Below, one piece after another: positions 24,264 to 34,746 of a stretch of DNA of 39,605 bases. The position numbers were made by a program, and so were the translations under genes. How positions within the stretch are numbered: position 1 is the first letter of the stretch; every line of letters starts with the position of its first letter. The notes under the pieces are model-generated. The model did not search any database and was not told where the DNA came from. It worked only from the letters and a program-made list of their open reading frames with translations. Origin of the DNA: Methylotenera sp. (GTDB lineage: Bacteria > Pseudomonadota > Gammaproteobacteria > Burkholderiales > Methylophilaceae); assembly GCA_017880905.1 (NCBI GenBank), contig JADGRO010000001.1:1-39605 (forward strand), written 5' to 3'.

Positions 24264-24899
24264 CTAATATTCCACCATCACCTCGTTGCGCCTTAAAAAC
24301 GGCAGCGTCCAAGGCGGGTCATAGCGCGCAAGTTCTGGCGAACCAACGGGTTTAAGTTGTTTGCTCGCCATCCAAGACAGCAATTCTTCGGTTTTTTTAG
24401 CAACCTTAGCTTCACCAGTAAAACCAGAAAAATTCACGACTGCAAATTTTTTAGCAGCAACCTCACGTAGCTTCACCTCTGGGTTAATTGGCACGGGTAA
24501 GGTCTCAAGCTTATATTTACTTGGCATCACAAAGTGCATGCGCCATTTACCAGAGGCTTCTTGCAAGCTTACAGGCGTGGTCATCGAAATCTTCTCCGGT
24601 TTAGATTCTAATGTCACAGGAGCAGTCATGCTAACCTTCTCGTTGCCACCTGCGCGCGACTTATTATTGCCAAAAATATAATCGGCAATCAACCTAAAAC
24701 CTTTATTGGAAGCCTCATCCATATCGCCATCCACAAACACTTCGGCCACTATAATTGGCTTGTAGGCGCGTAATTCAACCGCATCTGATTTTTCAACAAG
24801 GTCATACTTTGGTTCTTCGTAAGCCATGGCAATTCCTGAGATAAATAAGCTAGAAAATAAAATAGATAAAATACATATATCCACTAGACGAAATAACAT
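24264..24899 (-). CDS. SOUL-family heme-binding-like protein, exported
   Basis: 211 residues from the ATG at 24899, chosen because AAGGAA precedes it and a clean signal peptide follows (MLFRLVDICILSILF...GIAMA). The longer frame to 24956 places a charged stretch before the signal. SOUL-family segments: YEEPKYDLVEKSDAVELRAY, NEKVSMTAPVTLES, KISMTTPV and MHFVMPSKYKLETLP. The family is linked to heme or porphyrin binding; the bacterial role is unclear. It is divergent from the DUF1993 gene. Confidence 0.85.
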   Translation of the reverse strand: MLFRLVDICILSILFSSLFISGIAMAYEEPKYDLVEKSDAVELRAYKPIIVAEVFVDGDMDEASNKGFRLIADYIFGNNKSRAGGNEKVSMTAPVTLESKPEKISMTTPVSLQEASGKWRMHFVMPSKYKLETLPVPINPEVKLREVAAKKFAVVNFSGFTGEAKVAKKTEELLSWMASKQLKPVGSPELARYDPPWTLPFLRRNEVMVEY

Positions 24900-24917
24900 G
24901 CAGCTGGATTCCTTTTC

Positions 24918-24959
24918 AATTCCAATTTGGAGTATGATTTTTGTTATTAATTCCAATTT
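24918..24959. repeat. Two 11-bp direct repeats in the SOUL/DUF1993 divergent spacer
   Basis: AATTCCAATTT occurs at 24918-24928 and 24949-24959, 31 bp apart, close to three DNA turns. Being in a divergent promoter region, they may be paired binding sites for a regulator. Confidence 0.4.
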
Positions 24960-25486: not shown

Positions 25487-28453
25487 TTATTGCCGTTTCA
25501 CGTCACCAACCGTGCCTTCAAGGCTAAAGTTGGCATACAGGCGACGTGATTTTGCAACAAGGTCAGCATTGATTTTGCCTGAAATATCACCTTTCGGCTG
25601 AATATCCATATTGCCTTTGGCATGAAATTGTTCGGCTTCCAGCACCAGTTGCCTATATTGATACTGCCCATCTTTAAACTGCAAACTACCGCTGAGTTTA
25701 TCGAAATGCGTAGCGTCTCCGGCCAAAGATTTATCTGCCCTAAATAGCACTGCGCGCTGTAAATCGACACCGTTAATTTTGCCGTCTCGTAGCTCAAAAT
25801 TAGCAGTAACGTCAGGAATATCACCCAACTTACTTGCCTCGCTTGATATGCTAGTAAAATTTCCTGTTAGGTTAAGTTTGCCATCTATTGATGCACCACT
25901 GCCGAATGCCTTTAGTAACTGCGGCGAAGTAACGTTAATAAGATTGAAATTTCCTGATCCTGTCCACTGATTGGACCAATCGACAAGCGCCTTGGCGGTG
26001 ATTTTGCCGCCGTAAATCTCTCCGTTTATCTGGCTGAAATCGATACGACCTTGGTTTAGTGTGCCTTTTGCATTGAGTTCATCGAACATGATTTTCGGAC
26101 TGACTGGCAGCGGCCATTTGTTGGCGGTCAGCATGACATCGAAACTGCCACCTTGTGGAACAATTTGCATTGTAAGTTTATCATCAACGCTATTTAGTTC
26201 GATGTTACTAAGTGTGTGTGATTCGGTAAGGCCGATTTTCCCGTCAAAAATACCAAGATCAAGATCGCGAAGCTTGAGTGACATTTTCTTTAAGCCCAAA
26301 TGCCAAATCTTTAAGTGTTCTGCTTTACCTAAATTGTTGACCCATTGCAATGGCTGCGCGAAATTTTCCTGATTGATTTTCAATCCTACTAGCTCAAGCG
26401 AGTCCACCCTTTTTATGTTTTCTGACAAAGATGAAATTTCCGGCAAAATATTAATAGCCTCAATTTTTTGAATGGCGTTAGCACCTATCGCTATATTCCC
26501 AAGCTCCAAATGCGGCTCAGGCCAAAGTGAAGCATGAACTTCCGTAATGGTCACTGGCTCGCCCACGCTCTCCGAAGCAAGCTTTTCAATAGGAGCAATC
26601 AGCGTGCTTAGGTTGAAAAATGGCATTAGGCCAATCAGCATCAACACAGACAGTGGCAGATAAATTAGCACAGCCCTGATAAGGATCGAAACCCCTTTTG
26701 CAATATCCAAATTTATCACTGGTCTCTTGCCTTGCAGCTTAGCCAAAGCTTCGGCTTCTACTATTGCGGCGTGTTTAATTTCCTCACGCCCATGCTCTTC
26801 GGTCTCTTGCTGGTTTTTTTCCTTGGCCTTAAGTGCTGTCTTTTCTGTTTCCTCTTTGATACGTTCTTCTTCCAAGAACGCCTCTTCCTCTGCCTCTTCT
26901 CTAGCTTGTAGCTCCTCTTGTGACCATGTCCTAGCTACTACTTTAAGGTGATTTTCAGCATCATGTTTTTGCCGCACTTCTTCTGCTTCTCGCGCAATGC
27001 GTTCCATTTCTAGGCGCGCCTTCTCCTTTGCTTCGGCATTAGCTTTTTCTTCAGCTTCCACTTTGGCATGCATGTGTTCTGCTTCTGCCTGTGCTTTATG
27101 CTCGGCTTCTGCTTTGGCGTGAAATTCAGCTTCCGCTTTTTTTCGTGCTTCCTCTTCTGCGCTGGCAAAACGCTCCTTTTCTAAGCGCACCTTCTCCTTC
27201 GCTTCAGCGCTAGTCTTTTCTTCGCTTTCTACGTTGTTAAACGCTTGTCCGTCATCCAATTCCCCCTTGCGTTTGGCCTTAATTCGAACCTCTTCTTCTG
27301 CCTTAGCTTTGCGCTTGGCTTCTTGTTTAGCTTCTTTGGCTTTAGCCCCCGCTTTTTTCCTATCCTCTTCCGCTTTGCGAACGATACTCGCCATTTCAAA
27401 GTGCGCTTTCTCTTCCGCTTCAAGTTTGGCACGGGCTGCAGCCTCTTCGCGCGCTTTTCGCTCAGCTTTTTCTTTGGCGGCCTCCTCCTCGGCTTTGGAC
27501 TTGCGTTCTGCTTTCAGTCTGGCTTCCTCGGCCTTGGCACTCGCTTCGGCTTCGGCTTTTTTTCGCTTTTCTTCAGCTTCGCGGGCGCTGTGCTCCGCTT
27601 CAAGGCGCGCGTGTTCTTCTGCCTCGAGTTTTTCCTTTGCTTCAGTTTCGGCCTGCAGACGTGCTTCTTCTGCGACCTTGGCCTTTCGCTCTGCCTCTAT
27701 TCTGGCTTCATTTTCAGCCTTGGTGCGCGCTTCAAATTCAGCCTTTCTTTGCTCTTCTTCTGCTACGCGGGAAATACGCTCTATTTCACGACGTGCGTAC
27801 TCTTTTGCTTCGGCTTCCGCTTTTGCGCGCGTCTGTGCTTCTTGCGCCAACTTGGCTTTGCGTTCCGCCTGCAGACGCGCTTCTTCCTCGGCCTTGGCCT
27901 TTCGTTCCGCTTTCAGGCGTACTTCCTCTTCCGCCTTGGCCTTTCGCTCTGCTTCTATTCTGGCTTTTGCTTCGGCTTTGGATAATGCATCCATCTCTGC
28001 TTTTTTTCGCGCCGCTTCTGCTTCGCGAACAATACGTTCTTCTTCAAGGTGCGCCTTTACTTTTGCTTCGGCTTTAGCTTTTTCTTTAGCTAACTCTTCT
28101 GCGCGAATACGCTCGGCTTCCAGTCGAGCATCTTGTTTGGCTTTTGCCTCGGCCTCTTCTACGCTAGGAATTTCTTCAACAATCATTGGAGTAAAATTGA
28201 CGGTTGGTGCCCAGTCTGCTTCTGGGCGAGTTATTACTGCAGCCCTGACATAGCCTTGACTTTCAAGCTGTGTCAGGGCCGTAGCCAGTGCTTCTTCACT
28301 AAGTTCATCGTATTTAAGCAGAATCGTTTCGGCTTTTGATTTGCCATCGACGAGCGAAAGCACCCTCATCAGATGCGATGACAGGCCGCCAATCATGGAA
28401 CTACGAGCGCGCAAACCCTTGCCCGTTTTACTGTAAACTACTGATAAATCCAT
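25487..28453 (-). CDS. Giant coiled-coil, membrane-anchored protein with AsmA-like C-terminus
   Basis: 988 residues from the ATG at 28453; a GTG directly before it would add one. Order: residues 1-85, a small helical, possibly winged-helix domain (SKAETILLKYDELSEEALATALTQLESQGYV); about 95-575, an almost unbroken Glu/Lys/Ala repeat (KAEAEARLEAERKAK style) predicted to be a very long coiled coil; about 588-610, one membrane helix (ILIRAVLIYLPLSVLMLIGLM); then about 380 residues resembling AsmA-type beta-helical proteins (ITEVHASLWPEPHLELGNIAIG; DGKLNLTGNFTS). Topology should place the coil in the cytoplasm and the AsmA-like part in the periplasm. The partner is unknown. The repeat creates long open frames on the opposite strand, which are not genes. 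Confidence 0.8.
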   Translation of the reverse strand: MDLSVVYSKTGKGLRARSSMIGGLSSHLMRVLSLVDGKSKAETILLKYDELSEEALATALTQLESQGYVRAAVITRPEADWAPTVNFTPMIVEEIPSVEEAEAKAKQDARLEAERIRAEELAKEKAKAEAKVKAHLEEERIVREAEAARKKAEMDALSKAEAKARIEAERKAKAEEEVRLKAERKAKAEEEARLQAERKAKLAQEAQTRAKAEAEAKEYARREIERISRVAEEEQRKAEFEARTKAENEARIEAERKAKVAEEARLQAETEAKEKLEAEEHARLEAEHSAREAEEKRKKAEAEASAKAEEARLKAERKSKAEEEAAKEKAERKAREEAAARAKLEAEEKAHFEMASIVRKAEEDRKKAGAKAKEAKQEAKRKAKAEEEVRIKAKRKGELDDGQAFNNVESEEKTSAEAKEKVRLEKERFASAEEEARKKAEAEFHAKAEAEHKAQAEAEHMHAKVEAEEKANAEAKEKARLEMERIAREAEEVRQKHDAENHLKVVARTWSQEELQAREEAEEEAFLEEERIKEETEKTALKAKEKNQQETEEHGREEIKHAAIVEAEALAKLQGKRPVINLDIAKGVSILIRAVLIYLPLSVLMLIGLMPFFNLSTLIAPIEKLASESVGEPVTITEVHASLWPEPHLELGNIAIGANAIQKIEAINILPEISSLSENIKRVDSLELVGLKINQENFAQPLQWVNNLGKAEHLKIWHLGLKKMSLKLRDLDLGIFDGKIGLTESHTLSNIELNSVDDKLTMQIVPQGGSFDVMLTANKWPLPVSPKIMFDELNAKGTLNQGRIDFSQINGEIYGGKITAKALVDWSNQWTGSGNFNLINVTSPQLLKAFGSGASIDGKLNLTGNFTSISSEASKLGDIPDVTANFELRDGKINGVDLQRAVLFRADKSLAGDATHFDKLSGSLQFKDGQYQYRQLVLEAEQFHAKGNMDIQPKGDISGKINADLVAKSRRLYANFSLEGTVGDVKRQ

Positions 28454-28463
28454 CACTTAAGTT

Positions 28464-28625
28464 TTAAGCAAATTTTAACTTAAAATCCAAGACCCGATAT
28501 TTTGGGCACACAGGGCTAAACAACCCCTCAATATACTGCTGTATCGTCATTTTCAAGTTCTGTTCTCCTTGTAAACGATCATCATAAGTCCACCCGTCCG
28601 TATGCGAATGAGCAAATGATTCCAT
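28464..28625 (-). pseudogene. Possible gene remnant upstream of the coiled-coil gene
   Basis: A 53-codon frame (MESFAHSHTDGWTYDDRLQ...) reads like real protein, and the open frame continues upstream to a stop near 28676 with a CxxC (RQCTDCAY). There is no start codon in that extension and no Shine-Dalgarno before the ATG. A stretch further upstream in a different minus frame also looks protein-like. It is best read as the tail of a decayed gene, ending 10 bp before the coiled-coil start. The family was not recognised. Confidence 0.3.
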
Positions 28626-28794
28626 ATACGCACAATCCGTACATTGCCTAGGTAGCCTATACTCGCATGGAATACCTCACTACGTCAATATAGCTGGTCA
28701 AGTGCCTTGTATTGATTGTCACCGTATCAATGAAGCAACAAACACGAATAAATTACGCTTAGCTTAGAAAAAGCTACAAATCACACTTTTCTTC

Positions 28795-28821
28795 TAAAGA
28801 TTGTTTCAAACCTGCCGATGT
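28795..28821 (+). promoter_or_regulatory. Sigma28 (FliA)-type promoter, copy 1
   Basis: TAAAGATT (28795-28802), 11 bases, GCCGATGT (28814-28821). This matches the flagellar sigma28 consensus TAAAGTTT-N11-GCCGATAA at 13 of 16 positions with exact spacing. It lies in a block (28793-28834) that recurs at 31365-31406 with only 2 differences in 42 bases. The predicted transcript starts near 28829, about 34 nt before the ATG. Confidence 0.7.
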
Positions 28822-28862
28822 AATACTTAACACTACTTTAAGTTAATTTAAGGAGGTGCGAG

Positions 28863-29012
28863 ATGACTATCTATCAAGTGCTTAATGAAGAAAACAAACT
28901 ATATCGCGAATATGCAGACTTAGATCAAGCCTTGCATTGCGCTCTAGACTTTACCAACTGGGATGTCGAACATTACTACCTTGTGAAAGAGCTAGAGTTA
29001 GAAGCTGCCTAA
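28863..29012 (+). CDS. MTIYQV small protein 1 (49 aa)
   Basis: A 49-residue acidic protein, too short for usual gene calling. It starts MTIYQVLNEENKLYREYAD and ends in an acidic tail (KELELEAA). A strong AGGAGGT ribosome site sits at the right distance. It has two equal-length paralogues, at 31432 (32 of 49 residues identical) and 34338 (shared N-terminus and scattered positions). Conserved features are MTIYQV, a Leu and Tyr near 13-17, and a WDxEHYY stretch in copies 1 and 2. No known family was recognised. The sigma28-type promoter suggests expression with late flagellar or chemotaxis genes. Confidence 0.82.
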   Translation: MTIYQVLNEENKLYREYADLDQALHCALDFTNWDVEHYYLVKELELEAA

Positions 29013-29043
29013 TTTGTATCTTGTAGACCAAGCATCCGAGTAC

Positions 29044-29116
29044 GGCGTATCTGCGTAGGGTAATACGCCAAAGATAGTTTACATACGGTAAATACCGCGT
29101 GTATTAAGCCTACGCG
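29044..29116. other. Cluster of short hairpins ahead of the 29146 membrane gene
   Basis: Three inverted repeats in sequence: GGCGTAT/ATACGCC (29044-29069), CGGTA-AA-TACCG (29086-29097), and CGCGT/ACGCG (29096-29116). They may be operator sites or leader RNA structure for the downstream gene. None has a T run. Confidence 0.35.
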
Positions 29117-29145
29117 AGCAACAACACTGTATTCGGAGGCTTAAA

Positions 29146-29538
29146 ATGAAACTTATCAGCGCACTATTCACTCATGCTTGGCTTGTCTTTAGATTAAAAC
29201 ACGATGGCACCGGCATGCCCACCAAGTTTCCTGCCACATTATTGCTTACCACTTTGTATGCTGTGCTAATTCTCGTGAATAAACACATTAATGACGGCAT
29301 CAACCTTGAAACGCTCATTGGGCTTAGCTTTATAAGCCAATTTTACATTTTTTGCTTAAGAAACAAACTGATAGGTCTCATTATTTTAATCAGTATAGTC
29401 ACCAATGTGCTATCACTAATGTTGACCACACTGGCACACATCCCAGAAGAGAACCTTTATTTGCTGCTAATCCTGGAATACATAATGGTTTTTGCAGCAA
29501 TTATCAACATCATCAGAAGTCACACCAAAATTGTCTAA
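29146..29538 (+). CDS. Small integral membrane hypothetical protein
   Basis: 130 residues with about four hydrophobic segments (near FPATLLLTTLYAVLILV, LIGLSFISQFYIFCL, LIGLIILISIVTNVLSLML and YLLLILEYIMVFAAIINII). CGGAGG precedes the ATG. The N-terminus HAWLVFRLKHDGTGMPTKFPA is cytoplasmic-like. Family not recognised. It is convergent with the small membrane gene at 29552, with 13 bp between the stops. Confidence 0.65.
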   Translation: MKLISALFTHAWLVFRLKHDGTGMPTKFPATLLLTTLYAVLILVNKHINDGINLETLIGLSFISQFYIFCLRNKLIGLIILISIVTNVLSLMLTTLAHIPEENLYLLLILEYIMVFAAIINIIRSHTKIV

Positions 29539-29551
29539 ATGTTGACTAAAC

Positions 29552-29824
29552 TCAAGGTGGCGTGAGCCCAGTCGCCTTTAATAGTTGAGATAAATCTTCT
29601 GGAGTTTGCGCTACCGGTTGCGGACCATTAATTTTGGCTTGTGCCCAATCTACCAACTCGCCCGATCCCCAAGAAATCACATAAGCCAGCACAAATACTA
29701 AGAGTCCACGCGTCATGCCTTTTGGCATACCTATGTCATCTAAATAGCGACGCAAAGCCCACGCCGCGATGATAAACACGATGGTGGAAATGATGATGTT
29801 CCACATAGAAGGTAGCGCGAACAT
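29552..29824 (-). CDS. Small membrane protein with two hydrophobic segments
   Basis: 90 residues from the ATG at 29824 (MFALPSMWNIIISTIVFI). A longer frame to 29863 has no ribosome site and a less typical N-terminus. Segment 1 is near residues 7-24, segment 2 near GLLVFVLAYVISWGSG. The C-terminal tail is soluble and Pro/Gln-rich. Family not recognised. Confidence 0.55.
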   Translation of the reverse strand: MFALPSMWNIIISTIVFIIAAWALRRYLDDIGMPKGMTRGLLVFVLAYVISWGSGELVDWAQAKINGPQPVAQTPEDLSQLLKATGLTPP

Positions 29825-29945
29825 AATGGCTTTTCTAATAAGGCAAATGTGAATAGTAGCCATTATTCAATGGATTGTACAACCATGTAGGCATGGTCAT
29901 ATTTTTGTAGCCATCACATGACAATAACTAGGCAAGTCCGTGTGA

Positions 29946-30977
29946 TTAGTGCTGTGCTTCGGCCATTTCCATCGCAAGTTTAAGTTGAGTAGCAGCTGTC
30001 TCATCTAAATCATTCAGCAGCGCCACATTATTCAAAGCCAATGTGTGTTTGCCACTTTCTTCTGCCACTAAGCCCAAATAATAGATCGCTTGGCTATGCT
30101 GATTATTCATCGCCACCACCTTTTGCAAGTGTGCTTCGGCTTTCTTAAAATCTTTTGTCGCATATTCAGCTGTAGCCAAATAAAACCAAGATTCCGCAGT
30201 ATTAGGCTCTTGCTCTGTCCATTTGCTGGCAATTTGCAATAATGCACCCCAATTTTCGGTTATATATGGTTGCACCACTTGCATAAAATAGGGCCATTTA
30301 TCGTAAGATAATGCCCAGAATGGCTGCTCGCTTTTAGTGCTAATGGCTTGTTCTGGTGCATTTAATAAGGCCTGCACCCACTCAACCGGCATATTGTAGT
30401 AATAAGCATTGCTGCCCGGGCTTTTTAGCGTAATTATACCTACTAAATTGCCATCGTCATCAAATACGCCGCCGCCGCTGGCGCCAAGCCCAAAGGTGCT
30501 GGTGGCGCGGATAATCACGCTATCATCCATTGGGTAAAGCCCTTTTACAACACCAAAGGTGTTGACTGGTACCGCTACAAAGCTAGGGTAGCCGATGGTG
30601 AAGACAGATTGCTCGTACTTAAGGTTTTTGCTTGAGCCTATTTTTGCAGTAGGTGCATTCAAGTCATCTACTTTTAAAATACATAAATCGTGATGCCAAT
30701 CCGGTTTAATGGCGCTTACAGAAAGCGGCATGCCATTGTTGACTACAACTATACTATTGGCATTTGCCACTACATGACAATTTGTAACCACCCGATCTTT
30801 TGCGATAACCACTGCAGAACCAAGACCGTAACTACCATTTGCAAGCCCGACTTGCACTCGCAATACTTGACCACTTAGCTGATGCAACAGTTCTTCGGTT
30901 GGCGCCGCCAACGTTGATGTTGCTGAGCACAAATAAAATAAAGCCGAATAAAACAAAGTAAAGCAGAGCCTTGTCAT
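29946..30977 (-). CDS. Secreted trypsin-like serine protease with C-terminal TPRs (copy 2)
   Basis: 343 residues from the ATG at 30977, chosen because GGGGAC is well spaced before it. The longest frame begins with a TTG inside that ribosome site. The signal peptide ends near STLA. Probable catalytic triad: His68 (TNCHV), Asp97 (HHDLCIL), Ser167 (GASGGGV). TPR-like helices follow (SWFYLATAEYATKDFKKAEAHLQKVV). It matches the protein at 12627 along its whole length, including the spacer GLYPMDDS and KSPGxxAYYYNxPVxWVxALLxAPE, so the two are paralogues. Periplasmic location is inferred. Confidence 0.83.
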   Translation of the reverse strand: MTRLCFTLFYSALFYLCSATSTLAAPTEELLHQLSGQVLRVQVGLANGSYGLGSAVVIAKDRVVTNCHVVANANSIVVVNNGMPLSVSAIKPDWHHDLCILKVDDLNAPTAKIGSSKNLKYEQSVFTIGYPSFVAVPVNTFGVVKGLYPMDDSVIIRATSTFGLGASGGGVFDDDGNLVGIITLKSPGSNAYYYNMPVEWVQALLNAPEQAISTKSEQPFWALSYDKWPYFMQVVQPYITENWGALLQIASKWTEQEPNTAESWFYLATAEYATKDFKKAEAHLQKVVAMNNQHSQAIYYLGLVAEESGKHTLALNNVALLNDLDETAATQLKLAMEMAEAQH

Positions 30978-31254
30978 GATAGTCCCCAATCTACATACTA
31001 ATTTTGATTAACCTCGCAAAAAATAAAAACTGCCACTAAAAATTAAATTAAAAAATGTTGTACTAATTAAATATATATTAAATAAAGCAATTACCGTTCC
31101 AAGTTGTTCAAAGCTATTTAACAAATATCCAGAACCTAACTTTTATATCGGATGATTTAAGTAAAAGATTAATCCGGAACTGGCAAAACCAAATTGCCAA
31201 AAACAGATGGTTAACAACACCAGTTTGATTATTTGGAAAAAACATTCCATAGAT

Positions 31255-31305
31255 AGATGCCATGAAATCAGCATGGATATTGTCTCACAGAGCATCTATT
31301 ACCCG
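31255..31305 (+). repeat. Dispersed hairpin repeat, copy A
   Basis: AGATGC...GCATCT ends around the shared core GCATGGATATTG. It aligns with copies C, D and E. It ends TCTATTACCCGTT, like copy C. Confidence 0.6.
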
Positions 31306-31366
31306 TTAATTTTTTTACACAAGCCAATTTAAATAAAAAGAGTACGCAACAAACCCGTTTTTTATC

Positions 31367-31393
31367 TAAAGATTGTTTTAAACATGCCGATGT
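31367..31393 (+). promoter_or_regulatory. Sigma28 (FliA)-type promoter, copy 2
   Basis: TAAAGATT (31367-31374), 11 bases, GCCGATGT (31386-31393). Both boxes are identical to copy 1. Predicted start near 31400, about 30 nt before the ATG at 31432. Confidence 0.7.
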
Positions 31394-31431
31394 AATACTT
31401 AACACTCCAAAGTGTATGGAAAGGCTGCAAA

Positions 31432-31581
31432 ATGACAATCTACCAAGTACTTAATGAAGATAGCCAGCTCTATTGCGAATACATGGATGTAGACAAGGCC
31501 ATGCATAGCGCACAAGACCTAACCGTGTGGGATGACGAACATTATTACCATGTGGAAGAACTTGAACTAGAAGTGGTTTAA
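31432..31581 (+). CDS. MTIYQV small protein 2 (49 aa)
   Basis: A 49-residue paralogue of the gene at 28863, starting MTIYQVLNEDSQLYCEYMD and ending EELELEVV. It keeps WDDEHYYHVEELELE from the other copy. Substitutions between copies are spread along the protein at conservative sites, which argues for selection on a real protein. GGAAAGG precedes the ATG. The promoter block is the same sigma28-type sequence as copy 1. A strong terminator at 31671 closes the unit. Function unknown. Confidence 0.82.
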   Translation: MTIYQVLNEDSQLYCEYMDVDKAMHSAQDLTVWDDEHYYHVEELELEVV

Positions 31582-31670
31582 AACTTTTAAGCGGCGGACA
31601 AAATCTGCTTGTTGTGTTGTTTGTTATTTTGCATGTTTTACCAGTTGTAAGATTTGCGAAATCTCCCCTT

Positions 31671-31702
31671 GGGGCTTGCAACTGCAGTTGCGAGCCCCTT
31701 TT
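31671..31702 (+). terminator. Terminator after MTIYQV gene 2
   Basis: Arms GGGGCTTGCAACTG and CAGTTGCGAGCCCC form a 14-bp stem with one G-T pair, followed by TTTT. It ends the 31432 transcript. Confidence 0.88.
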
Positions 31703-31857
31703 ATTTAATTGTGCCCTAGTAGCTAGCATAGCCAAACATTAGTTTAGTGCACGCGCACCTTATTTGTGCGCACTACATGTTTCTGATTCACCAACTCTAA
31801 ACATTAAAATTCAATTTTTATAGTTTAAATTCAGTGAGCTATCTATTTAACTTGTGT

Positions 31858-31874
31858 TTGGCACAGCCTTTGCT
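31858..31874 (+). promoter_or_regulatory. Sigma54 (-24/-12) promoter of the CZB gene
   Basis: TTGGCACAGCCTTTGCT matches 12 of 13 informative positions of the sigma54 consensus, with GG-N10-GC spacing exact. Transcription would start near 31885, about 65 nt before the ATG at 31950. An enhancer-binding activator would be required; none is encoded nearby. Confidence 0.75.
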
Positions 31875-31949
31875 ATAGTTTTTTCTGAAGCTCAGCGTGT
31901 TAAAGGTAGTAATTTGTTAATAACGATAAAACGTACTAAGGGAATAAAA

Positions 31950-32393
31950 ATGGCATTATTAGATTGGTTTGATAAAAAAGTTAATGATGATAAAGATCTT
32001 AAGTTAAATACCGAACCAAAATTAGAGGGTTTGTCGAATCCTAATCTTAGACAAATACTTGATACTCACCATGCTTTGAAGGAAAAGCTGCAAAACGTGA
32101 TGGATGGCACGAGCCGTGAGAATTTAGATATCGCTGTTCTATCTCAGGACAACTCATGTGCGATAGGAAAATGGCTTTATGGCGAAGGAAAAAACTTATA
32201 TGGTCATCTGCCGGAATATGAATCTGCGCGTCAGGTACATGCAGAGCTGCATTTGTGCGCAGGTGAAGTACTAACGCAGCATCAACTTGGTAATGAGGAA
32301 CATGCACAAGAGTTATTAAAAACCAAATTTCGCACTACTTCCAGCAAAAATCAATTGGAATTTGCACGCTTATTTGGCGCGGCCAAGGCTTAA
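31950..32393 (+). CDS. Stand-alone CZB (chemoreceptor zinc-binding) domain protein
   Basis: 147 residues from the ATG at 31950 (MALLDWFDKKVND), which has AAGGGA upstream. A longer frame from 31854 runs through the sigma54 site and is rejected. The CZB 3His/1Cys pattern is present: His40/41, Cys70 in NSCAIGKWLYGEG, His97 and His101 in HAELH. CZB domains sense zinc or hypochlorous acid at the end of chemoreceptors or on diguanylate cyclases. Here there is no receptor or GGDEF part, so it may act in trans. It sits between MTIYQV genes 2 and 3. Confidence 0.87.
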   Translation: MALLDWFDKKVNDDKDLKLNTEPKLEGLSNPNLRQILDTHHALKEKLQNVMDGTSRENLDIAVLSQDNSCAIGKWLYGEGKNLYGHLPEYESARQVHAELHLCAGEVLTQHQLGNEEHAQELLKTKFRTTSSKNQLEFARLFGAAKA

Positions 32394-32447
32394 GGCGCAG
32401 GCGCGAACAATTAAACAGCGCGCTTGAGTTTAATTAACTAAAAAAAT

Positions 32448-32505
32448 ATGCTCTGTAGCCGCATGGCCATTAGTTTAGATACTGGTGGCTTGCAGGGCAT
32501 ATAAT
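32448..32505 (+). repeat. Dispersed hairpin repeat, copy B (divergent)
   Basis: Begins ATGCTCTGTAGCCGCATGG and ends GCAGGGCATATAAT, with a longer, altered middle. It lies 55 bp after the CZB stop. Confidence 0.5.
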
Positions 32506-32530
32506 TTTGTTTTATTTTTGTTGTAGGATA

Positions 32531-32562
32531 TGTTAAATATCTAACATGTGAGATATTCAACA
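32531..32562 (+). promoter_or_regulatory. Inverted repeat overlapping the DUF1272 start
   Basis: TGTTAAATATCT (32531-32542) and AGATATTCAACA (32551-32562) pair at 11 of 12 positions around an 8-base loop. The right arm includes the first base of the ATG. No Shine-Dalgarno is present. It could be an operator or an RNA hairpin limiting translation. Confidence 0.45.
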
Positions 32563-32807
32563 TGCTGGCGCTTAGACCAAATTGCGAATGCTGTAACAAA
32601 GACCTTCCACCACATTCTGAAGAGGCAATGATTTGCTCTTTTGAATGCACTTTTTGCGCAACTTGTGCAAAACAAAAGCTGGCTGGAATATGCCCCAATT
32701 GCGGTGGGGAACTTGTTAAGCGACCAGCCAGACCTGCAGATAAATTAGTGAAACACCCCGCCTCAACTGAACGCATCTATAAACCGCAAGGTTGTAATAA
32801 CGTTTAG
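32562..32807 (+). CDS. DUF1272 zinc-ribbon-like protein
   Basis: 81 residues matching DUF1272: MLALRPNCECCNKDLPP, ICSFECTFCATCA and CPNCGGELVKRPARP. Eight or more Cys in CxxC pairs suggest two zinc sites. Function unknown. It has no visible ribosome site; an inverted repeat overlaps its start. Confidence 0.9.
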   Translation: MLALRPNCECCNKDLPPHSEEAMICSFECTFCATCAKQKLAGICPNCGGELVKRPARPADKLVKHPASTERIYKPQGCNNV

Positions 32808-32817
32808 TGTTAATTAA

Positions 32818-32866
32818 TTGCTCTGAAATCCGCATGGATATTGCCTTGTAGAGCATCCATTATTCG
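32818..32866 (+). repeat. Dispersed hairpin repeat, copy C
   Basis: TTGCTCTGAAATCCGCATGGATATTGCC-type left half and GTAGAGCATCCATTATTCGTT right half, 10 bp after the DUF1272 stop. Confidence 0.6.
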
Positions 32867-32973
32867 TTATTTTAGTGGTTCCGCACCCAGCCAGCCATTC
32901 CTGCGCTTGCTGAACTTAACTTGCTTAAGCGCTCTCTAATAGGTTGTATGTCACTAATTGCCTAGGAGATTCA

Positions 32974-33498
32974 ATGCGCAAAATTTTTATTGCACTTACT
33001 TTAATATCCCCATTGTTAGTATCAACTGCAAACTCGGCAGAATTCAACATGCGGTCTGGATTATGGCAAATAACAACGTCATCAGATTTGTTGTGGCTAG
33101 CACCGCAGATTCCACCAGATCAAATGCAAAACATTAAAGGCTTAGCCAAGGATTACGGAATCGATATGCCACAAATTGAAAATGGCGCCGCAATATCCAA
33201 CGCTTGTATTACGCAAGAAATGGCCAATCAAAAAACGCTGCCCAATTTTTATCAAACTGAATTAGGCTGTACTTCTAAAAATGCGACCCGTGTCGGAAAC
33301 AACTACAAAATAGACTTCGTTTGTGCCAGCGCCGCACTAAAAGGCAGTGGAACGGCAGAGGGCACTGTTACAAGCCCGGAAAACTTCTCAGGACAAACTA
33401 AATTCAATGGCGTAGCACAAAGCAACCCTGTCAATGAGCGGGCTGATATCAGCGGCAAATGGATTAATGCAAGCTGTGGAACTGTAAAACCGTTATAG
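32974..33498 (+). CDS. DUF3617 family exported protein
   Basis: 174 residues from the ATG at 32974, which follows TAGGAGA; the longer frame from 32944 lacks a ribosome site. The signal peptide (MRKIFIALTLISPLLVSTANSA) is followed by the DUF3617 pattern: FNMRSGLWQIT, a Cys in ACITQEM, and a Cys-containing C-terminal beta region. The product should be periplasmic. Function unknown. Confidence 0.8.
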   Translation: MRKIFIALTLISPLLVSTANSAEFNMRSGLWQITTSSDLLWLAPQIPPDQMQNIKGLAKDYGIDMPQIENGAAISNACITQEMANQKTLPNFYQTELGCTSKNATRVGNNYKIDFVCASAALKGSGTAEGTVTSPENFSGQTKFNGVAQSNPVNERADISGKWINASCGTVKPL

Positions 33499-33526
33499 TG
33501 AACGCTTATTAAGGGAGAAATCAGCA

Positions 33527-33724
33527 ATGGCTAAGCAAGATTTACAGAAAGCTAAATTTCAAGAGCATGTGAAAGCGGTTGAAGAACACAAATCGTTACT
33601 AGAAAAATTGCATCTTGAGAAACTGCATCTTGATTCAAACAATAATTTAGATGAAATAAATAACTCTATTGAAAGGCTAACCCTCACGCTTGAGGAATAC
33701 CTTAAGGTGATTGGTATCCCATAA
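33527..33724 (+). CDS. Small coiled-coil hypothetical protein (65 aa)
   Basis: 65 residues, nearly all predicted helix, with heptad-like Leu/Glu/Lys patterns (EEHKSLLEKLHLEKLHL and IERLTLTLEEYL). AAGGGAGA lies before the ATG. It is 28 bp after the DUF3617 gene on the same strand. No family recognised; probably a soluble helical dimer. Confidence 0.6.
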   Translation: MAKQDLQKAKFQEHVKAVEEHKSLLEKLHLEKLHLDSNNNLDEINNSIERLTLTLEEYLKVIGIP

Positions 33725-33739
33725 TTTTAAAAACGAAAT

Positions 33740-34111
33740 TTATTTTGCGGCGCGTTTATCAAGCATGAATGAGGTTGCCGTAAGCGCCACGCCAAGCGCC
33801 ACCACGGCGAACACGACTAAAAACAGCGGATCGTGCGTCTGCACATAAAGCCACACAATCACCACAAGAAAAAACGTGCGAACGACTAGGGTGGTAGGGT
33901 AGAGCACCTCGACACTATGACGAATAATCTGGCTTACCACGATGCTTAGCGCAATCATAAACGCGCCGGTAAATTGCACAAATGTGCTCTCGTAATGCCC
34001 GTTAGACAACAACAATTTAAGCGAAAATTGCGGCGCAAACAGCAGGCCAACACCAGTGATAAACAGATACGTGGCCAAATAATAGAGGCTCAAGCGGGTT
34101 TTTGGTTTCAT
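33740..34111 (-). CDS. Four-segment integral membrane hypothetical protein
   Basis: 123 residues from the ATG at 34111 (MKPKTRLSLYYLATYLFITGVG), which follows CTGGAGA; a longer frame to 34150 lacks one. Four hydrophobic segments are visible, with a basic C-terminus (DKRAAK). Family not recognised. It is convergent with the coiled-coil gene at 33527. Confidence 0.6.
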   Translation of the reverse strand: MKPKTRLSLYYLATYLFITGVGLLFAPQFSLKLLLSNGHYESTFVQFTGAFMIALSIVVSQIIRHSVEVLYPTTLVVRTFFLVVIVWLYVQTHDPLFLVVFAVVALGVALTATSFMLDKRAAK

Positions 34112-34269
34112 CACTAATCTCCAGTTGCAGCAGTATGTCCATATTTGCACAGTCTTGACAATTTCTCAAACAACTTTTGACTTAAATCCACCTTAATTTA
34201 TTATCGATAAACCCATGAATTTTATTTTAAGTGATTGAAATATAACAGTAAATTTCAATAAATTAGTTG

Positions 34270-34286
34270 TTGGCCTGGTTTATGCT
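34270..34286 (+). promoter_or_regulatory. Possible sigma54 promoter of MTIYQV gene 3
   Basis: TTGGCCTGGTTTATGCT matches 10 of 13 informative sigma54 positions with exact GG-N10-GC spacing. The predicted start near 34297 leaves about 40 nt of leader. No sigma28-like boxes are present here, unlike at copies 1 and 2. Confidence 0.45.
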
Positions 34287-34337
34287 CCATACACATTGTG
34301 GTAGGTAATTAAATTTGAATATTTAAGGGGCATTAAA

Positions 34338-34487
34338 ATGACAATTTACCAAGTGATCAACAAACAGAACCAACTTGAGTATGCATATCTTAACTATGAA
34401 GTTGCTGTAGAAGAAGTTATCAAGCTAAACGAAAGCCGTAGCGAAAATTACTTTTCTATTAATGCAGTTGAAGACGAAGATTTTTAA
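34338..34487 (+). CDS. MTIYQV small protein 3 (49 aa)
   Basis: 49 residues, the same length as the paralogues at 28863 and 31432, starting MTIYQVINKQNQLEYAYLN and ending in an acidic tail (VEDEDF). It is more diverged: the N-terminal MTIYQV, Asn8, Leu13, Tyr17 and the acidic end are kept, while the WDxEHYY block becomes SENYF. AAGGGG precedes the ATG. It has a sigma54-like promoter rather than the sigma28 type. Function unknown. Confidence 0.75.
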   Translation: MTIYQVINKQNQLEYAYLNYEVAVEEVIKLNESRSENYFSINAVEDEDF

Positions 34488-34746
34488 GTTATAAGTTTGT
34501 AAGATAAGGTCAAAATTGACCTAAAAGCAATACTCTGTAACGCACATAGATACTGCCTCTCAAGGCAGGGGCATATAAAGACGTTAGCGCCGTGGTCAAC
34601 GTAGCCGACAAGGCCGGTCTAGCGCGCAAAGTAGCTAGGCTAGAACCACTGATATGCATTAAAGGGGATGTGATGCCCATCCTCATCTGCGTACACAAAA
34701 CTCAAAGGCAACAACCTTGAATGTACGTCACTCGATATATGGTGCT
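34488..34746. other. Intergenic segment with hairpins and a GC-richer tract
   Basis: Contains a perfect inverted repeat AGGTCAA-AA-TTGACCT (34507-34522), then a degenerate copy of the dispersed repeat (about 34529-34578) with local hairpin CTGCC/GGCAG. A GC-richer tract to about 34700 follows. Short open frames there on both strands have no start signals. It may be a decayed gene or mobile element, but nothing is identifiable. Confidence 0.4.
34529..34578 (+). repeat. Possible degenerate copy of the dispersed hairpin repeat (copy F)
   Basis: ATACTCTGTAACGCACATAG...GGGGCATATAAAG resembles copy B at both ends. It lies about 40 bp after MTIYQV gene 3. The middle is replaced by a different hairpin. 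Confidence 0.35.

Follow-up and report, generated by a model that had tools for sequence, protein, structure and literature searches.

In a contig of a Methylotenera species (GenBank assembly GCA_017880905.1, JADGRO010000001.1, positions 1 to 39,605; we call this 39,605-nucleotide stretch the window), two genes for related 49-amino-acid proteins are preceded by nearly identical 42-base blocks that resemble promoters for FliA, the flagellar sigma factor (sigma28). Our proposal is that FliA reads both blocks as promoters, with the second one driving a bipartite transcript: an open reading frame (ORF) for a 49-amino-acid protein, followed by a small RNA (sRNA) at the 3' end. Judging from sequence comparisons, we consider this proposal probable. 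We will refer to block 2, its ORF, and the RNA as unit 2.

Two nearly identical promoter blocks

Block 1 (28793–28834, + strand) lies ahead of gene 1 (28863–29012, +), and block 2 (31365–31406, +) lies ahead of gene 2 (31432–31581, +). Both contain TAAAGATT-N11-GCCGATGT, that is, a TAAAG-type -35 element and a GCCGAT-type -10 element at the 11-bp spacing of sigma28 promoters. In block 1, the -35 element is at 28795–28802 and the -10 element is at 28814–28821, with a conserved AATACTTAACACT; in block 2, they are at 31367–31374 and 31386–31393. As the first-pass annotation of this DNA had stated, the blocks differ at just 2 of 42 bases (position 15, C/T, and position 20, C/A) and their flanks are unrelated: the 60 bases 5' of the two blocks are identical at 17 positions, which is the chance level. 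A repeat search of the window reported the pair as a 48-nt repeat with 92% identity. No further place in the window matches block 1 with 10 or fewer mismatches.

Rather than judge by a consensus alone, we scored sites with a matrix. Of the 52 FliA sites identified in E. coli by chromatin immunoprecipitation sequencing (PMC4183435, Table 2), it was built from 23, namely the 22 with an enrichment score of at least 10, plus ynjH. Both blocks score 19.7, as compared to a median of 18.3 for E. coli, and they rank first and second among the window's 79,156 positions. None of 10 random windows from a first-order Markov model reached 19.7. We also considered that the pair might be a chance repeat, but this is ruled out by the matrix ranking together with the low divergence of the blocks between flanks that match at the chance level. 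The first-pass annotation's identification of FliA-type promoters with exact spacing is well supported, at the level of sequence, by the matrix score, by the fliA gene, and by the recurrence of the elements in four genera (see below). Separately, the window has a weaker sigma28-type site (24679–24705, - strand, score 16.5) within an ORF (24264–24956). Many FliA sites in E. coli are likewise intragenic (PMC4183435).

The first-pass annotation's proposal presupposes a sigma28 gene in the genome, and there is one: fliA matches TIGR02479 with 278.1 bits (the cut-off is 189.6). The contig that encodes it (C18) also carries flhDC, flhB, flhA, flhF, motAB-like genes, and cheY, which we recognized by eye in the translations. 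A flagellin gene is on another contig (C47).

The 49-amino-acid proteins

The first-pass annotation was also correct that genes 1 and 2 are paralogs. Their proteins are 65–67% identical, with 0.19 nonsynonymous substitutions per site (dN) and about 2 synonymous substitutions per site (dS). Because dN is so far below dS, these look to be real genes under purifying selection; and because the synonymous sites are saturated, the duplication is old.

The proteins are orphans. Searches of Pfam, NCBIfam, and PDB sequence profiles (PHROGs and PADLOC were outside the search) found nothing below E = 0.04, and a Foldseek comparison to PDB folds found nothing below E = 1.4. AlphaFold2 predicts a beta-beta-alpha-beta fold for the gene 2 protein; the best of five models has a mean confidence (pLDDT, the predicted local distance difference test) of 89.5, the others range from 55 to 83, and the alignment held six sequences. 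Among the papers listed by our literature searches, none dealt with these genes or with sRNAs from Methylophilaceae.

At E up to 0.01, homologs are present in 47 of 187 genomes from Methylophilaceae, which is a methanol-using family. A sample of 399 genomes from the order contains 3 with a match, and all of these are Methylophilaceae. Genes 1 and 2 belong to what we call subfamily A, which is present in 35 of the 79 genomes whose FliA match exceeds the cut-off, as compared to 7 of the 108 other genomes (p = 8e-10, Fisher exact test on a hand tally, uncorrected for relatedness). Loss of motility has been described for planktonic Methylophilaceae (PMC6794327).

Sigma28-type sites in other Methylophilaceae

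The first-pass annotation had suggested scanning Methylophilaceae genomes for the same block, and a scan of the 187 genomes gave matches ahead of related genes. The pattern TAAAGNNT-N10-12-GCCGATGTAAT occurs 12 times, as compared to 0 times for the reversed control, and 11 of the 12 occurrences stand 5' of genes for the 49-amino-acid family. (The twelfth, in genome G170, stands 5' of the RNA, without a family gene.) Ahead of subfamily-A genes from four genera, the letters of the -35 and -10 elements recur while the spacer and the flanks diverge. Across 14 sites with 11-bp spacing, the mean pairwise identity is 0.44 for the 30 bases upstream, 0.84 for the -35 element, 0.44 for the spacer, 0.98 for the -10 element, 0.79 for the 9 bases after the -10 element, and 0.42 for the next 16 bases. 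Because the motif itself was the criterion for choosing these sites, the values for the -35 and -10 elements are biased upwards; the values for the spacer and flanks and the 0.79 are unbiased. Within this motif-picked set, then, the elements are conserved above the surrounding DNA. A site that scores at least 14 with the E. coli matrix is present in 16 of 46 regions upstream of subfamily-A genes, as compared to 0 of 1,200 random regions matched for composition. (We chose this threshold ourselves, and likewise the six queries by which proteins were assigned to subfamilies. These counts drop the duplicates L058 and L074 and omit L040–L042, whose contigs are already included as L047, L043, and L044.)

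Several observations set limits to this picture. A strong site (at least 14) is missing from 30 of the 46 subfamily-A members. It is absent from all 14 MTMYQVMDEENHC-type orthologs, although these are all from FliA-positive genomes. FliA-positive genomes do not have the motif more often (13 of 37 subfamily-A genes) than FliA-negative genomes do (3 of 9), so the idea that its presence tracks FliA within the subfamily is unsupported. And G042, a genome with a single contig and 98% completeness in which no FliA exceeds the cut-off, carries a site that scores 18.1. We thought that the GCCGAA form of the -10 element in G042, G043, and G044, which lack FliA, might reflect decay, but we dropped this idea: the matrix still gives 18.1, 15.9, and 13.4, and tsr of E. 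coli has GCCGAA as well. Sigma28 control, as the first-pass annotation proposed it, does not extend to the whole subfamily; strong sites are limited to 16 of its 46 members. By eye, the MTMYQVMDEENHC-type orthologs of g15 (L058–L069) share a different upstream stretch, CTCTGCAAAATCA...TGTCAT...GCCATGATGTCATCAC.

An alternative is that the blocks are bound by a different regulator, or that they are a mobile repeat whose likeness to the FliA consensus is fortuitous. The conservation after the -10 element (0.79 over 9 bases) exceeds what FliA needs, as does a palindrome, GTTTYAAAC, in the spacer of 3 of the 6 sites of this genus, and the motif's indifference to FliA within subfamily A would fit too. 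However, the score, the spacing, and the fliA gene all fit FliA; between genera, the -35 and -10 letters are kept and the spacer is not; and there is no third copy of the block in the window, even at 10 mismatches. Across the genome, the -10 element and the downstream part occur with fewer than 3 mismatches in these two blocks only. We consider this explanation quite improbable, and we retain FliA promoters as our interpretation. The palindrome is found in both of the window's promoters and at L049, with a near-match at L111; perhaps it is a site for another regulator.

A putative small RNA after gene 2

Neither the RNA nor a third paralog (discussed below) appears in the first-pass annotation. 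In G170, the stretch after the twelfth motif site resembles the window just 3' of gene 2. A third copy is in G169, behind TCAAGATT-N11-GCCGATGT. (A blastn search gave many matches down to E = 1, and only those in the window and G169 were used.) In both G169 and G170, there is no ORF between the sigma28-type promoter and the RNA. In the window, the conserved structured RNA (31591–31704, +) is the predicted 3' end of the transcript of gene 2, and it ends with an intrinsic terminator, a hairpin of 12 pairs followed by TTTT (31671–31698, +). The three copies have in common the GCGGACAAAATCTGC hairpin, which is invariant, as well as a segment TTGCGA, a stretch rich in C and U, and the terminator hairpin. 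Measured from the predicted start of transcription to the U tail, the transcript would have a length of about 129 nt (G169), 160 nt (G170), or, with the ORF included, 304 nt (the window).

This element has sequence features expected of a sigma28-dependent sRNA: a sigma28-type promoter upstream on the same strand, a terminator at the end, and, ahead of the terminator, conservation of sequence and structure (among three sequences, with few covarying pairs and a marginal result for G170 and the window). Ahead of the terminator, G169 and G170 are identical at 58 of 75 positions, and G169 and the window at 58 of 81, both far above shuffled sequences; the stretches from G169 and G170 extend 3–4 bases into the terminator. 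The downstream flanks (three comparisons) and the upstream flanks of G169 and the window are at the level of shuffles. The folding z scores of the three copies are -4.5, -3.6, and -3.9, with the terminators included, and one pair in the terminator changes from C-G to U-A. A covariance model that was built from these three copies, with strict filters, found strong matches (102.6–121 bits) in the same 3 of 187 genomes. Weaker matches (in G140, G035, L081, and others) and an antisense self-match were taken as chance. A scan with the 4,227 Rfam models gave no match up to E = 1 in 28400–34700 of the window or in L106 or L111.

Other results count against this reading. Ahead of the terminator, G170 and the window are identical at 51 of 80 positions, and their score of 16.5 barely exceeds that of the best of 200 shuffles (15.0). 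The upstream flanks of G169 and G170, the other pair compared on that side, are somewhat similar, with a score of 22.5 (the shuffles had a mean of 16.7 and a maximum of 24.5). Changes on both sides of a pair are seen at just 2 of 24 consensus pairs, and for each of two pairs there is one sequence in which the bases cannot pair. Under the strict filters, the RNA is found in 3 genomes of one genus, from which 15 genomes were searched. And a rough duplex test of the RNA (31591–31670) against 13 start regions of flagellar or neighbouring genes and 16 background regions found no convincing target. By duplex energy, the one region to stand out was that of gene 2 itself (0 of 100 shuffles); this region includes promoter DNA that would not be transcribed, so we make no claim from it.

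A simpler explanation is that these are two ordinary sigma28 promoters of small late-flagellar genes, and that the stretch after gene 2 is a terminator and an untranslated tail that has no function of its own. The blocks and the ORFs are both constrained, the best-conserved structure is the terminator, and the RNA is in just 3 of 187 genomes, all of which this explanation would accommodate. But it does not explain why G169 and G170 have the promoter and the RNA together without the ORF, or why the part ahead of the terminator, with its invariant 15-base hairpin, is conserved (between G169 and G170 and between G169 and the window) when the downstream flanks are not. We regard this simpler explanation as unlikely, though it deserves some weight.

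We also considered that the stretch might instead encode another small protein. Each of the three species has an open frame that spans it (in the window, the ORF is at 31614–31742), and the alignment gaps of 12, 6, and 3 are multiples of three. However, this frame crosses the terminator and the U tail to reach a stop codon beyond them in two of the copies, those of the window and G170 (in G169, the stretch translated ended before any stop), the window has TTG where the other copies have ATG, and the invariant hairpin lies 5' of the proposed start. A hidden ORF seems very improbable, and we set it aside because the frame runs through the terminator.

Paralog 3 and sigma54-like elements

The window encodes a third member of the family, paralog 3 (34338–34487, +; 49 amino acids), which is 31–33% identical to the proteins of genes 1 and 2 and belongs to subfamily B. 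It has no sigma28-type site, and neither do the other members of subfamily B (none of 12). Instead, a sigma54-like GG-N10-GC element with 11 of 14 consensus letters (34270–34286, +) precedes it. Such an element is present 60–74 bases before the start of 11 of the 12 subfamily-B members, including paralog 3, as compared to 2 of 46 subfamily-A members and 31 of 1,200 random regions. (We required at least 10 of 14 letters of the consensus, GG-N10-GC with its TGGCAC/TTGC context.) The genome contains rpoN. So subfamily A appears to be assigned to sigma28 and subfamily B to sigma54, insofar as upstream motifs can tell. At L049:1501–1932 (in G171), two genes for 49-amino-acid proteins are in tandem, the first with a sigma28-type site and the second with a sigma54-like element.

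The window has four sigma54-like sites with 13 of 14 letters, versus 0.05 expected per random window. One (31086–31102, -) precedes a Trypsin_2/TPR protease gene (29946–30989, -). Another (31858–31874, +) precedes, in the same island, a gene for a stand-alone chemoreceptor zinc-binding (CZB) domain, if that gene starts at the ATG at 31950; this start is our reading, and the mechanical ORF begins at 31854. The other two are inside ORFs (1390, +, and 10424, -).

History and proposed function of unit 2

Gene 1 seems to be in the older location. It follows genes for DUF1993 and AsmA proteins and is followed by a gene for an apparently hydrophobic 130-amino-acid protein (29146–29538, +; no match in Pfam or NCBIfam), and these neighbours are the same in G169, G170, and G171 as in the window. 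The gene for the 130-amino-acid protein follows gene 1 in all four genomes of the genus that we compared (G000, G169, G170, and G171). In three g15 genomes (L040, L153, and L154), a subfamily-A gene lies 1.4–2.5 kb after the DUF1993 gene, with no match to AsmA between them. We take the position near the DUF1993 gene to be the older one.

Gene 2 is closer to several relatives than to gene 1. It is 86% identical to L041, 76% to L042, and 71% to L040, but just 65% identical to gene 1. Most of the relatives compared are closer to gene 2 than to gene 1 (for L041, 86% versus 73–74%; for G169, 78% versus 61%); the exception is the first copy in G171 (57% to gene 2 and 60% to gene 1). The first-pass annotation's suggestion that a whole transcription unit was duplicated is therefore right only in part, given the age of the duplication, these identities, and the position that gene 1 shares with relatives. 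Its related claim, that the promoter is conserved together with the gene, fits the 11 sites ahead of family genes. In the sister species G169 and G170, however, only the RNA follows a promoter of the promoter 2 kind, so conservation of the promoter need not go with the gene.

In G169, the RNA unit is in an island with protease, CZB, and DUF3617 genes. In G170, it is beside protease and paralog-3 genes, as is gene 2 in the window. In G170, the promoter of gene 1 has decayed (score 2.9) and the promoter of the RNA is intact. Because the promoter in G169 and G170 would make the RNA alone, the RNA unit was probably in the island before the ORF, which would have arrived later, between the promoter and the RNA, in the lineage of the window. 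The insertion may have occurred by recombination between two copies of the promoter. Another possible history is that the ORF was lost from the sisters G169 and G170.

Under our proposal, promoter 1 would give a short mRNA for an orphan 49-amino-acid protein, and promoter 2 would give a bipartite transcript of approximately 300 nt, with the paralogous ORF and then a stable small RNA, comprising the hairpin with the invariant GCGGACAAAATCTGC, a C/U-rich single strand, and the terminator with its U tail. Once flagellar assembly frees FliA, this RNA might be released by processing or might act within the mRNA. A promoter of this kind would, in G169 and G170, give only the RNA, at about 130–160 nt. 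Because the CU-rich stretch resembles an anti-Shine-Dalgarno sequence, we propose that the RNA most likely pairs with mRNAs via this stretch, so that the late flagellar stage feeds back on translation. More speculatively, an sRNA gene may have become a bipartite mRNA-sRNA by gaining an orphan ORF, with the paralogs split between sigma28 and sigma54, the two alternative sigma factors of motile bacteria, so that the RNA and the protein would mark successive regulatory stages in these methylotrophs. We think this broader scenario is possible but somewhat less likely than not to be right in full.

If our proposal is correct, then there is a sigma28-dependent small RNA in Methylophilaceae, beyond those of E. 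coli and Campylobacter. Close relatives that have the RNA alone, or the ORF plus the RNA, would be a tractable case of an sRNA joining or leaving an mRNA. It would also offer a way into the study of these orphan proteins, which we saw only in Methylophilaceae and whose subfamilies are apparently under different alternative sigma factors.

Comparison to known systems

The promoters resemble the FliA promoters of E. coli (TAAAG..T-N11-GCCGAT), with equal spacing and scores in the same range (PMC4183435). In E. coli, the form GCCGATAA is common; the window's blocks instead have GCCGATGT and a conserved AAT downstream. Forms of the -10 element with GATG are found in E. coli as well, at trg and uhpT.

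By analogy, the nearest known cases for unit 2 would be FliX and FlgO of E. coli and CjNC1 and CjNC4 of Campylobacter. FliX and FlgO are sRNAs from the 3' untranslated regions of flagellar mRNAs and are controlled by sigma28 (PMC10578931). The RNA of unit 2 is similarly predicted to be a 3' untranslated region-type RNA on a sigma28-type transcript. Unlike the mRNAs that host FliX and FlgO, the host mRNA here encodes an orphan 49-amino-acid protein, and the ORF is missing ahead of the RNA in two sister species. Similarity in sequence to FliX or FlgO was judged by the Rfam scan alone, which gave no match. CjNC1 and CjNC4 are paralogous noncoding RNAs that depend on sigma28 and have predicted sigma54-dependent targets (PMC4626219). 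As in those cases, unit 2 has a putative small RNA behind a sigma28-type promoter that is conserved in a group of related species; but in Campylobacter the paralogs are the RNAs, and here they are the proteins.

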